Assembly (NCBI RefSeq): GCF_030697925.1
Contig: NZ_JAUYOJ010000006.1
Span: 1 to 64,000, forward strand
From: Phenylobacterium sp.
GTDB taxonomy: Bacteria > Pseudomonadota > Alphaproteobacteria > Caulobacterales > Caulobacteraceae
Length of the DNA stretch: 64,000 nt
Direction of reading: 5' to 3'
Shown here: one piece after another, positions 46,613 to 52,888 of the stretch
Layout: every line of letters starts with the position of its first letter
Position numbering within the stretch: the first letter of the stretch is position 1
Program-made: the position numbers and the translations under genes
Notes under the pieces: model-generated
The model's input: the letters and a program-made list of their open reading frames with translations, nothing else
Told to the model about the DNA's origin: nothing
The model's database searches: none

Positions 46613-46732
46613 CTCACGCGCTCCCGCCCGGCGCGGAGCCGGGCCTTCAGGAGCGGGTCTTGGACGGCGAGCCGTCTGCCCGGGCGCCCGCGTCGGCCCG
46701 GAGCCCCCAGGATAGTCCCTCGGCCGCCCGGT
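46613..46732. other. Structured GC-rich gap upstream of the ATP-grasp gene
   Basis: Two clear stems are present: CCCGGC at 46627-46632 with GCCGGG at 46638-46643, and GACGGC at 46663-46668 with GCCGTC at 46671-46676. The rest is unusually G/C rich. It lies between two genes of the same strand, so it may hold a terminator for the membrane-protein gene and the promoter of the ATP-grasp gene. Confidence 0.35.
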
Positions 46733-49553: not shown

Positions 49554-52160
49554 ATGGCTGACGCAGCGGCGACCGCGCCGGATCTCCTGCCCGAACGTTT
49601 CGCCGGCTGGTTCGAGGACCGGGGCTGGAGCCCGCGCGCCCATCAGCTCGACATGGTGGCCAAGGCTCGCGAGGGCCGCGACGCCCTGCTGATCGCCCCC
49701 ACCGGCGGCGGCAAGACCCTGGCCGGCTTTCTGCCAAGCCTGATCGAGCTGTCCGAGCGGCCGCCGCCCAACACGCCCCAGGGCATCCACACCCTCTACA
49801 TCTCGCCGCTGAAGGCGCTGGCCGTCGATGTCGAGCGCAACCTCATGGCGCCGATCCTCCAGATGGGCCTGCCCATCGTCGCCGAGAGCCGCACCGGCGA
49901 CACCGGCCAGGCGCGCAAGCAGCGCCAGCGGGTCAAGCCCCCCGACATCCTGCTGACCACCCCCGAACAGCTCGCCCTGTTCTGCGCCTGGGAGGGGGCC
50001 CGGCTCTATTTCGAGAACCTGAAGTGCGTGATCGTCGACGAGATCCACGCCATCCACGCTTCCAAGCGCGGCGACCTGCTAGCGCTGGACCTGGCGCGCC
50101 TGCAGCGCTTCGCGCCCGGCCTGCGCCGGGTGGGGCTGTCGGCCACGGTGGACGATCCCGACGTGATCCGCCGCTGGCTGGCCTGCGCGTCGCCCGCCGG
50201 ACAGCAAGATCCTCCCCCTCCGGGGGAGGGGGACCGCGAAGCGGTGGAGGGGGTTGAAGCGCGCAAGAAGACGTCAAAGTCCCCCTCGGTCGGCTTCGCC
50301 CACAGCTCCCCCAGAGGGGGAGCATCTGGGCGTCCCGAAGACACCATCGACCTGGTTCGCGGTCCGCCCGGGGCCGCGCCCATCGTCGACATGCTGCTGT
50401 CGGAGGGCCGGGTGCCCTGGGCGGGCCACACCGCCCAGCACGCCATGGAAGAAGTCTATGAGACCATCAAGACGGCCAAGACCGCCCTGGTCTTCGTCAA
50501 CACCCGCTTCCAGGCCGAGTTCGCGTTCCAAGAGCTCTGGGGGCTCAACGACGACAATTTGCCCATCGCCCTCCACCACGGCTCGCTCGCCGCCGAGCAA
50601 CGCCGCAAGGTCGAGGCGGCCATGGCGCGCGGCGAGCTGAAGGCGGTGGTCTGCACCTCCACCCTCGACCTGGGCATCGACTGGGGCGACGTGGACCTGG
50701 TGATCCAACTCGCCTCGCCCAAGGGCGCCAGCCGCATGGTCCAGCGGATCGGCCGGGCCAACCACCGGCTGGACGAGCCCTCACGGGCTCTCTTCGTGCC
50801 AGCCAACCGCTTCGAGATGCTGGAATGCCAAGCCGCCCGGGAGGCCATCGCCGAGAACCGCTTCGACGGCGACCCTGCCCGGGTCGGCGCCCTGGACGTC
50901 CTGGCCCAGCACGTCATGGGCTGCGCCTGCTCCGAGCCCTTCGACCTGCTCGCCCTCTATGACGAGGTCCGCCGCTCCGGGCCCTATCGCGACCTGCCTT
51001 GGGAGGATTTCGAGCAGGTCGTCGATTTCGTCTCCACCGGCGGCTATGCGCTGAAGACCTACGACCGGTTCCGGCGGATCGTGAAGGGGTTGGACGGCCT
51101 GTGGCGGGTGCGCAATCCCCAGACCGCCCAGCGCCATCGACTGAACGTCGGCGCCATCCTCTCGCCCGCCATGCTCACGGTGAGGATCGCCATGGGTAAG
51201 TCCCTGCGCGGCGGACGCAAGGTCGGCGAAGTCGAGGAGGGCATGCTGGAGATGCTGGATCCCGGCGACACCTTCGTCTTCGCCGGCCAGGTCTGGTCGC
51301 TGGTGGCTGTGACCGGCATGGAGGTCCTGGTCCGGCCGGCCACGCACAAGGATCCCAAGATGCCTTCCTGGGGCGGCTCGAAGTTCGCCCTCTCCACCTT
51401 CCTGGCCAAGCGGGTGCGCGAGTTGATGTTCGACCAGGAGCACTGGAAGGTCCTGCCCGCCGACGTGCGCGAATGGCTGGAGATCCAGCGCGACCGCTCC
51501 CTGATCCCAAAGGACGAGGAGATGCTGCTGGAGACCTTCCCGCGCGGAAAGCGTCACTTCCTGGTGGTCTATCCGTTCGAGGGGCGTCTGGCGCACACCA
51601 CCCTGGCCATGCTGCTGACCCGGCGGCTGGAGCGGCTGGGCGCCGAGCCGCTGGGCTTCGTCTGCAACGACTATGCGATGGCGGTCTGGGCGCAGCAGCC
51701 GCTGGACGGACTCGATTTCGACGAACTCTTCGACCAGGACATGCTGGGCGACGATCTGGAATCCTGGCTCGCCGAGAGCTTCATGATGAAGCGCGCCTTC
51801 AAGGGCTGTGCGATCATCTCCGGGCTTATCGAGCGGCGATTCCCGGGCGAGGAGAAAACCGGGCGCCAGATAACCTTCTCAACGGACCTGATCTACGACG
51901 TGCTCCGCCGCCACCAGCCCGACCACCTGCTGCTCCGCTGCGCGCGGGATGACGCCGCCACCGGCCTGATCGACGTGGCGCGCCTGGGCCTGATGCTGGC
52001 GCGGATCAAGGGCCGCATCCGTCACGCCGCCCTCGACCACCTGTCCCCCTTCTCGGTGCCGATCCTGCTGGAGATCGGCAAGGAGCGCTCTCCCGGCCAG
52101 ACCGGCGAGCGGATCCTGGCCGAGGCCGAGGGCGACCTGATCGCCGAGGCCCTGGCATGA
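49554..52160 (+). CDS. Ligase-associated DNA damage response DEXH-box helicase
   Basis: 868 residues, Lhr-like. Motif I is LLIAPTGGGKTLAGFLPSL, motif II is VIVDEIHAIHASKRGD, motif III is GLSATV, motif V/VI is STLDLGIDWGDVDLVIQLAS then MVQRIGRANHRLDEPS. The C-terminal part (LVRPATHKDPKMPSW, HFLVVYPFEGRLAHTT, GFVCNDYAMAVWAQ) is specific to helicases linked to an ATP-dependent ligase and PdeM. About 43 residues after RRWLACASPAG (about 217-260) are translated from a palindromic repeat, absent from the helicase core in relatives as far as I recall. Stop overlaps pdeM by 4 bp. The ligase itself is outside the window. Confidence 0.92.
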   Translation: MADAAATAPDLLPERFAGWFEDRGWSPRAHQLDMVAKAREGRDALLIAPTGGGKTLAGFLPSLIELSERPPPNTPQGIHTLYISPLKALAVDVERNLMAPILQMGLPIVAESRTGDTGQARKQRQRVKPPDILLTTPEQLALFCAWEGARLYFENLKCVIVDEIHAIHASKRGDLLALDLARLQRFAPGLRRVGLSATVDDPDVIRRWLACASPAGQQDPPPPGEGDREAVEGVEARKKTSKSPSVGFAHSSPRGGASGRPEDTIDLVRGPPGAAPIVDMLLSEGRVPWAGHTAQHAMEEVYETIKTAKTALVFVNTRFQAEFAFQELWGLNDDNLPIALHHGSLAAEQRRKVEAAMARGELKAVVCTSTLDLGIDWGDVDLVIQLASPKGASRMVQRIGRANHRLDEPSRALFVPANRFEMLECQAAREAIAENRFDGDPARVGALDVLAQHVMGCACSEPFDLLALYDEVRRSGPYRDLPWEDFEQVVDFVSTGGYALKTYDRFRRIVKGLDGLWRVRNPQTAQRHRLNVGAILSPAMLTVRIAMGKSLRGGRKVGEVEEGMLEMLDPGDTFVFAGQVWSLVAVTGMEVLVRPATHKDPKMPSWGGSKFALSTFLAKRVRELMFDQEHWKVLPADVREWLEIQRDRSLIPKDEEMLLETFPRGKRHFLVVYPFEGRLAHTTLAMLLTRRLERLGAEPLGFVCNDYAMAVWAQQPLDGLDFDELFDQDMLGDDLESWLAESFMMKRAFKGCAIISGLIERRFPGEEKTGRQITFSTDLIYDVLRRHQPDHLLLRCARDDAATGLIDVARLGLMLARIKGRIRHAALDHLSPFSVPILLEIGKERSPGQTGERILAEAEGDLIAEALA
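50207..50327. repeat. Palindromic repeat inserted in the helicase gene
   Basis: A 121-bp element with inverted ends, AGATCCTCCCCCTC at 50207-50220 and its partner at 50314-50327, matching at 13 of 14 positions. Inside are three hairpins: CCTCCCCC/GGGGGAGG (50211-50229), ACCGC/GCGGT (50233-50245) and GCTCCCCC/GGGGGAGC (50305-50323). It has the look of intergenic REP-type elements of this clade but sits inside a coding region and keeps the frame open. Confidence 0.8.
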
Positions 52161-52888
52161 GCGCGCTCGCCCAGCCCCGTCAGCCTTACGCCTTCGGGGC
52201 CAGCCCCTGCGGCGGCCTGCGCACCACCCTGCTCGGCGCCGATGTGATCCTGCGCACCAGCGGGGCCCTATGGATCGAGCAGGCCCGCATGCTGGTGGTG
52301 GCCGACCTGCACCTGGAAAAGGGTTCGTCCTTCGCCATGCGCGGCCAGATGCTGCCGCCCTACGACACCCGCGACACCCTCGCGCGCCTGGCCGCCGAGG
52401 TCGCCGCGGCCGCGCCTCAGGCCGTGGTCCTGCTTGGCGACACCTTCCATGACCGCACCTCCGAGGCGCGGCTGGCGGAGGACGACGCCCAGCGCCTGCG
52501 CGACCTGGCGGGGCTGACCCGGCTGATCTGGGTGATCGGCAATCATGACGCCGACGGTCCCCAGACCCTGCCCGGCGAGGTGGCCGACGAACTCACGGTC
52601 GCCGGGCTGACCTTGCGCCACGAACCACAGGCCGGCCTGCAGCCCGGCGAGGTCGCAGGTCACCTCCACCCCTGCGCCCGGGTGACAGCCTCCCGCGGCA
52701 GCGTGCGGCGGCGGTGCTTCGTCACGGATGGCGAGCGGATGGTGGTCCCGGCCTTCGGCGCCTATGCCGGCGGTCTCAGCGTCCGCGACCAGGCCTTCGC
52801 GGGCTTCTTCTCGCGCGACCCGCTCTGCGGCGCGCTCGGCGCTGACCGGGTCCACGCGGTCGGCTGGCGATCAGTCGCCGGCGACTAG
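52157..52888 (+). CDS. pdeM: Ligase-associated DNA damage response endonuclease PdeM
   Basis: 243-residue calcineurin-like phosphoesterase. The metal motifs are VVADLHLEKGSSFAMRG, VVLLGDTFHD, IGNHD and GHLHPC, in the usual order. ATGA overlap with the helicase gene puts both in one operon. In this system the endonuclease, helicase, a ligase and an exonuclease act together in DNA repair. The ligase and exonuclease genes are not visible here. It shares a CTAG stop overlap with the convergent DUF3429 gene. Confidence 0.93.
   Translation: MSALAQPRQPYAFGASPCGGLRTTLLGADVILRTSGALWIEQARMLVVADLHLEKGSSFAMRGQMLPPYDTRDTLARLAAEVAAAAPQAVVLLGDTFHDRTSEARLAEDDAQRLRDLAGLTRLIWVIGNHDADGPQTLPGEVADELTVAGLTLRHEPQAGLQPGEVAGHLHPCARVTASRGSVRRRCFVTDGERMVVPAFGAYAGGLSVRDQAFAGFFSRDPLCGALGADRVHAVGWRSVAGD

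Follow-up and report, generated by a model that had tools for sequence, protein, structure and literature searches.

The gene for a DNA repair helicase in the window, that is, in the whole 64,000-nucleotide stretch of DNA that was analysed, carries a palindrome of 121 bp within its reading frame, and the question raised by this locus is whether a dispersed repeat has been taken up into the protein and what such an insert would mean for the enzyme. The host gene (49554..52160, + strand) encodes a ligase-associated DEXH-box (Lhr-type) DNA repair helicase of 868 residues, and its frame stays open through the insert. The product scored 1071.4 bits against TIGR04121 (cut-off 850), and its Pfam domains are DEAD (residues 29-200), Helicase_C (302-402), WH_Lhr (431-602), and DEAD_assoc (651-834); the next gene on the + strand encodes the ligase-associated endonuclease PdeM (52157..52888; TIGR04123, 218.1 bits at a cut-off of 150) and overlaps the helicase stop. 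The curated score, the Lhr winged helix, and the PdeM neighbour identify the protein as a ligase-associated DEXH-box helicase, for a relative of which a structure has been solved (5v9x).

Comparison with homologues places the palindrome in the linker between the two RecA domains, as the original prediction had it when it put the insert between the first RecA-like domain and the rest of the helicase. This linker runs from Trp208 to the first strand of RecA domain 2 (residues 209-264; 50178..50345, + strand) and comprises 56 residues, compared with 57 in the sister genome G024, 8 in the close relative G111, and 6-20 in insert-free congeners generally. In an AlphaFold2 model built from 14 sequences, residues 213-263 had pLDDT values below 50, in a model that is weak overall (mean pLDDT 60.6, with 270 residues below 50, including 741-868), such that low confidence extends beyond the insert; from it we took the RecA part and the location of the linker, nothing else. 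The linker with its insert is disordered by prediction only.

The element itself (50207..50327, + strand) is a BIME-like palindromic repeat copy, delimited by arm comparison, folding, genome copies, and copy alignment. It begins with AGATCCTCCCCC and ends with GGGGGAGCATCT, termini that match the ends of aligned full-length copies in G024. The outer arms (50199-50228 and 50306-50335) are 83% complementary and have shorter hairpins nested within them. From left to right on the + strand these are an outer hairpin, CTCCCCCTCCGGGGGAG (50212..50228), which by arm comparison pairs also with the right end; an inner hairpin, ACCGCGAAGCGGT (50233..50245), read directly from the letters; a right inner arm, TCCCCCTC, with its hairpin, GTCGGCTTCGCCCAC (50280..50303), assigned from the letters together with arm comparison; and a right outer hairpin, CTCCCCCAGAGGGGGAG (50306..50322), which arm comparison shows to be the inverted partner of the left end. 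The RNA fold of the element has an energy of -73.5 kcal/mol (z-score of -5.07) and its DNA fold a z-score of -4.15, values that none of 200 shuffled sequences equalled in either case. Four of the six frames through the element are open, the helicase frame among them. Coordinates, arms, and folds thus all agree with the 121-bp palindrome with inverted ends and hairpins that had been described, and the in-frame reading stands as well, with a small adjustment to its size: instead of about 43 extra residues, the element alone accounts for approximately 41, and the gain of the linker relative to that of G111 is 48. At gathering scores the element had no match in Rfam. The sole Rfam match in the window was a chrB-b RNA (46653-46701, - strand; 47.5 bits versus a gathering score of 36.5).

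A dispersed repeat family

The genome to which the window belongs (G000; 4.81 Mb in 251 contigs, with the window on contig C245) gave at least 42 BLAST matches to the element, itself included, when 40 of 74 candidates were scored. The best other copy is 90% identical over 108 bases, and many of the matches span one half only; full copies consist of two hairpin arms with a variable spacer between them. The sister genome G024 gave 46 matches and G111 gave 44, and at least one match was present in 40 of the 60 genomes searched, the own genome included. A plasmid collection contributed three matches, all in Sphingomonas parapaucimobilis and 72-75% identical. When the flanks of 10 G024 copies were sought in G000, four sites were contiguous without the element, three were occupied, and three were undecidable; on the basis of the element-free and occupied sites, copies of the family have been gained or lost since the sister species separated.

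Top-scoring copies from four genomes were then classified by a coding test that asked for a spanning frame and for coding-like base composition on both sides. Among the 116 copies examined (the best-scoring 30 of G000, 30 of G024, 26 of G009, and 30 of G111), four were coding, namely three in helicases and one in a hydantoinase A/B open frame of G024, and 29 of the 30 copies examined in the own genome failed the test. Excluding the helicases, one of 113 best-scoring copies in these genomes lies in a gene by the reading-frame test. Because three of the four coding copies are at the helicase, its linker is strongly over-represented, an estimate that applies to top-scoring copies in four genomes, three of which were picked for carrying the helicase insert. 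The mean number of open frames per palindrome of these GC-rich types ranged from 3.1 of six (15 copies, G024) to 4.8 of six (26 copies, G009). We conclude that the window element belongs to a dispersed family of palindromic repeats with the traits of REP/BIME-type repeats: many copies, mostly outside genes, palindromic, and paired in inverted orientation. The search for the same unit elsewhere in this and related genomes, proposed along with the original prediction, was thus answered positively. The hydantoinase A/B copy (G024 C1:3160069-3160197, L148) occupies a site that in G000 is contiguous and lacks the element, and the same frame contains a second stretch (AHPGEGRDP...) with the look of another translated repeat.

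The linker across the genus and beyond

The helicase of G111 is approximately 96% identical to that of the window, yet its linker has 8 residues versus 56, and in the gene tree it branches beside the pair formed by the window and G024 (SH-aLRT 100 and 97). Given the 44 repeat matches in G111, the absence of the insert there does not stem from a lack of the family. The helicase is present in 95 of the 101 genomes of the genus, taken to be Phenylobacterium because most of the closest named loci with the gene belong to it, and the site was read across in 91 of them (85 loci and six genomes read later; G079 was left out, its match starting beyond the site). Linkers of about 45-76 residues were found in 24 genomes and linkers of 0-20 residues in 67, where two of the short-linker rows (0 and 19 nt) have truncated N-terminal matches. 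In this comparison of homologous helicases, a check proposed along with the original prediction, insert-free relatives exist and long linkers are not confined to this lineage. All but one of the 24 long linkers are multiples of three without stops, the exception being that of G074 (134 nt), which contains an ambiguous base. One of the carriers is a cultured species, P. aquaticum (L031). The six genomes read later comprise the carriers G102 (195 nt) and G117 (180 nt) and the non-carriers G006 (51 nt) and G007, G035, and G030 (21 nt); the tree, the fold scoring, and the measurement of arm positions were done without them. No internal insert of more than 19 residues was present elsewhere in the helicase protein.

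Several types of palindromic repeat make up the inserts. In 20 of 22 rows their first arm begins 12-52 nt past the Trp codon, and all three phases are represented. The fold z-scores of 21 inserts (G074 was excluded because of its ambiguous base) extended from -1.4 to -12.6, with 18 of the 21 below -3 and weak scores for G004, G112, and G063, versus values between -1.3 and +1.1 for 17 of 18 short linkers (G019, -4.1). In pairwise blastn comparisons the G015 and G032 inserts had no similarity to any other insert, those of G100 and G063 had 49 bases in common and little with the others, and that of G087 resembled the G097 insert mainly in reverse orientation; the G102 insert looks like the one in G081 and G091. 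Opposite orientation was considered as proof of independence and is weak in that role, as some inserts (G009, G125) align well with their own reverse strand; for G087 versus G097 the opposite orientation is clear. A joined query of seven inserts against their own genomes gave 50-116 matches each, and further copies of the own insert are visible in G009, G031, G032, G033, and the genome of L032. The matches of the G090 insert in its own genome are pieces of 30-58 bases. The G015 insert, with one 33-base match in its genome besides the site and a 110-base match at 82% in G032, is the weakest case for an insert being a repeat. Target-site duplications could not be read because the linker ends have diverged.

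A gene tree was made without the linker to count the changes (85 rows, after removal of G080 [L108], which had a length of 0 by the method used and a truncated match, and addition of Peiella [L040] as the outgroup). The Fitch minimum for the 22 carriers was 16 changes, whereas 17 gains are needed without loss, and one gain would entail 22 losses, in what is a quick tree with 19 weak forks. Shuffled labels gave a mean of 19.7 changes and a minimum of 15; the count is near that of shuffled labels, and the presence of an insert is therefore nearly unlinked to ancestry. Long linkers extend beyond the genus, to four loci of a second genus of the same family (G286, G412, G455, and G237; 129-168 nt) and to one locus (G048; 177 nt) from a different family in the same order, and by eye and fold four of these five contain clear palindromes, G286 being less clear. 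Five other loci outside the genus included four short linkers (24-63 nt) and one, G052, that aligned poorly. Most of these loci were selected because their matches were broken or fused at the linker, and they do not estimate a frequency. Many times over, this one linker has acquired different palindromes, a pattern that was not visible to the earlier reader of the single sequence.

Selection on the linker was compared with that on the rest of the gene. For the close pairs G000/G024, G004/G112, and G081/G091, dN/dS was 0.60, 1.62, and 0.59 in the linker with its insert versus 0.06, 0.02, and 0.10 in the rest of the gene, and two wider pairs gave 1.21 and 0.71 in the linker versus 0.12 and 0.10. 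The insert residues are nearly free to change, on the basis of small numbers of sites. The DNA of the element behaved differently in two of three pairs, in which it differed less than the fourfold sites of the same gene (9.1% versus 19.9%, p = 0.005; 7.3% versus 24.3%, p = 5e-6), and had no deficit in the third (11.0% versus 13.1%, p = 0.64). In view of the two pairs with a deficit, constraint on the DNA or RNA, or gene conversion between copies, may be at work. The original prediction had left a choice between a neutral surface loop and a change in helicase function; the linker dN/dS values of 0.6-1.6 in five pairs and the pLDDT values below 50 fit the loop better than altered function. Its central claim, a mobile-type repeat placed in frame in a repair helicase, is supported by the genome copies, the insert-free relatives, and this codon analysis.

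Known repeats and competing explanations

BIMEs are paired REP elements that occur with RAYT transposases. The window family resembles them in its paired inverted hairpins, its dozens of copies, and their location mostly outside genes by the frame test. Among the Y1 loci examined, no RAYT-like gene was flanked by the window repeat; a RAYT was sought as the mover and was not linked to the family at these loci. A second likeness is to CIR, reportedly the CcrM-associated intergenic repeats of Caulobacter (Chen and Shapiro, 2003). GANTC sites occur in 55 of 74 copies of the window family from three genomes (14 of 23 in G000, 23 of 29 in G024, and 18 of 22 in G111) and in 1 of 25 in G009, where the counts leave out helicase copies and loci below 3 kb (6 in G000, 8 in G111); the window copy has none, and the G074 helicase copy retains one by eye. 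PMC2229807 and PMC10969869 describe CIR as alphaproteobacterial repeats of about 110 bp with two hairpin arms, a linker, and a GANTC site, strictly intergenic and with stops in all frames. By that description, the window family is like CIR in size, in two-arm form, and, for most copies in three of the four genomes counted, in GANTC, and the window copy is unlike CIR in being coding, without GANTC, and open in four frames. The same two reviews describe the Rickettsia palindromic elements (RPE), the classic case of this kind, as insertions of about 105-150 bp in frame in conserved proteins, with a neutral or slightly detrimental effect reported for one in guanylate kinase (PMC2229807, PMC10969869). 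The window element shares the in-frame insertion in an open reading frame; unlike RPE, which as described there have entered many genes, the window family has 4 coding copies among the 116 top-scoring ones examined, three of them at one linker, and a spread over diverse genes was not found in this set. The likeness to Rickettsia elements drawn in the original prediction holds in effect and does not imply family membership.

The nearest precedent for the host comes from intragenic REPs of the GTAG and CGTC superfamilies, described by Di Nocera et al. 2013 (PMC3733652). They are read in frame and often lie in genes for replication or repair; in two Xanthomonas species, recB carries different REPs at nearly the same position. 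The window family is similar as a set of dispersed palindromes read in frame in a repair gene, and it differs in its Lhr-type helicase host, in having no conserved tags, and in recurring at least 16-fold in one genus as well as in another genus and family. The window element contains no GTAG, and its single CGTC, at 50272 in the spacer, is not conserved in 15 aligned G024 copies. Our literature search found no report of palindromes in a ligase-associated Lhr-type helicase, which does not show that none exists, and no paper on palindromic intergenic repeats in Phenylobacterium. In-frame repeats in repair genes are known in kind; the strong recurrence at one linker and a coding CIR-like copy are new. 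One linker, in a gene carried by nearly the whole genus, took unrelated palindromes many times, and the approximately seventeen carrier clades, most with insert-free sisters, are natural replicates that make "tolerated or favoured" directly testable. They also exemplify how dispersed non-coding repeats can give rise to new protein segments, which here are probably disordered.

Our preferred reading, which we consider likely, is that dispersed palindromic repeats have repeatedly been inserted in frame in an unusually tolerant helicase linker, where they serve as a near-neutral spacer. Repeats of several families would be spread through the genomes by some mover, and the scarcity of coding copies suggests that palindromes at other coding places are nearly always purged by selection. 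The linker, lying between two rigid domains, would accept 45-76 residues of varied sequence in any open frame, such that several repeat types may have been gained, and some perhaps lost, independently, with insertion rather than loss probably behind most of the changes. In the window, a REP/BIME- or CIR-like repeat of two arms and a short spacer would have entered the linker of RecA domains 1 and 2, most simply before the split of the window's species and G024, and its translation would yield a disordered spacer that is near-neutral for the enzyme. Tolerance of the linker would account for the neutrality, the scatter of arms, and the possible losses. It should also leave repeats in many other linkers, and the single gene copy outside the helicases asks for something more; tolerance alone leaves the low hit rate of other genes unaccounted, and there is therefore room for benefit or insertion bias.

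Benefit would mean that the insert is favoured, a disordered spacer or a DNA or mRNA hairpin tuning the helicase, for example by a translation pause between the RecA domains. At least 16 changes at one linker against the rarity of other coding copies, the strong folds, and the lower divergence of the element DNA relative to fourfold sites in two of the three pairs are consistent with it, and Di Nocera et al. 2013 (PMC3733652) speculate alike for repair genes. We nevertheless regard it as rather unlikely, in that 67 of 91 genomes lack an insert, residue dN/dS is near 1, sequence, length, and phase vary freely, and the fourfold comparison fails in one pair. A broader version, in which the linker is an order-wide acceptor and selection repeatedly recruits palindromes whose DNA or mRNA hairpin, lying exactly at the junction of two domains, tunes the enzyme (for example by ribosome pausing) as interchangeable modules turned on or off from species to species, seems improbable to us. 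Insertion bias would instead make the site a preferred target of a repeat-moving enzyme or of recombination, whatever the protein tolerates. Several repeat types at one linker would fit such a bias, as would the gene for a Y1-type transposase (PF01797), which the own genome contains along with 4 of the 20 further genomes of the genus in which it was sought (35 genomes were searched in all, G024 not among them). Site-specific insertion is disfavoured because the first arms scatter in position and phase, and by eye no common target sequence is visible. The match of the window element to five same-genus PF01797 loci was at best 19 bases (E = 0.001, at L076), nothing longer than 29 bases linked the 22 linker inserts to six PF01797 loci, and of four carriers searched two have a Y1 gene and two (G004, G015) gave no hit. 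The own Y1 gene (G000 C59:11986-12309, L077) is flanked by 23-nt inverted repeats, near TTCGGGGACACTATACTAATTT, that do not belong to the window repeat family. On this evidence we judge insertion bias unlikely.

The changes might also trace to one ancient insertion, repeatedly lost and replaced by local repeats through gene conversion. The carriers G000/G024 and G004/G112/G074 have a single repeat type in common, in one orientation, short linkers such as that of G114 may retain remnants, and conversion could have reshaped a single old insert within a carrier clade. A single gain requires 22 separate losses, however, and the dissimilar G015 and G032 inserts and the mainly reversed likeness of G087 and G097 also speak against a common origin, which we think quite unlikely. 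High-GC genomes commonly encode linkers with much Pro, Gly, and Ser, and the insert could on that ground be ordinary low-complexity coding sequence merely resembling a palindrome, with no mobile repeat involved. This reading is ruled out for practical purposes, its chance being negligible, by the copies in the own genome and their failure in the coding test, by the fold z-scores, and by the nearly identical relative that lacks the insert. The observations that might have overturned the original prediction were likewise not made: other copies exist, relatives without the insert exist, and loops of similar length are mostly palindromic repeats too.

Contig ends and possible remnants at the linker

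Stretches rich in C and in G within the short linkers of G114 (L116) and G107 (L096) may be what is left of palindromes since deleted. In the draft genome G102, a TAG is flagged inside the helicase match (C130, L237). Three further genomes (G106, G075, and G021) have contigs that end at the linker and contributed five partial rows outside the tree (two, two, and one, respectively). These metagenome contig ends (L099, L100, L129, L130, and L057) contain clear repeat sequence in G106 and G075, the G021 contig begins with only GGGGGAGG, and one G106 contig end crosses a short hairpin out of frame, like a misassembly. Assembly gaps at the helicase linker can thus mark inserts, which explains contig breaks there in some metagenome assemblies.
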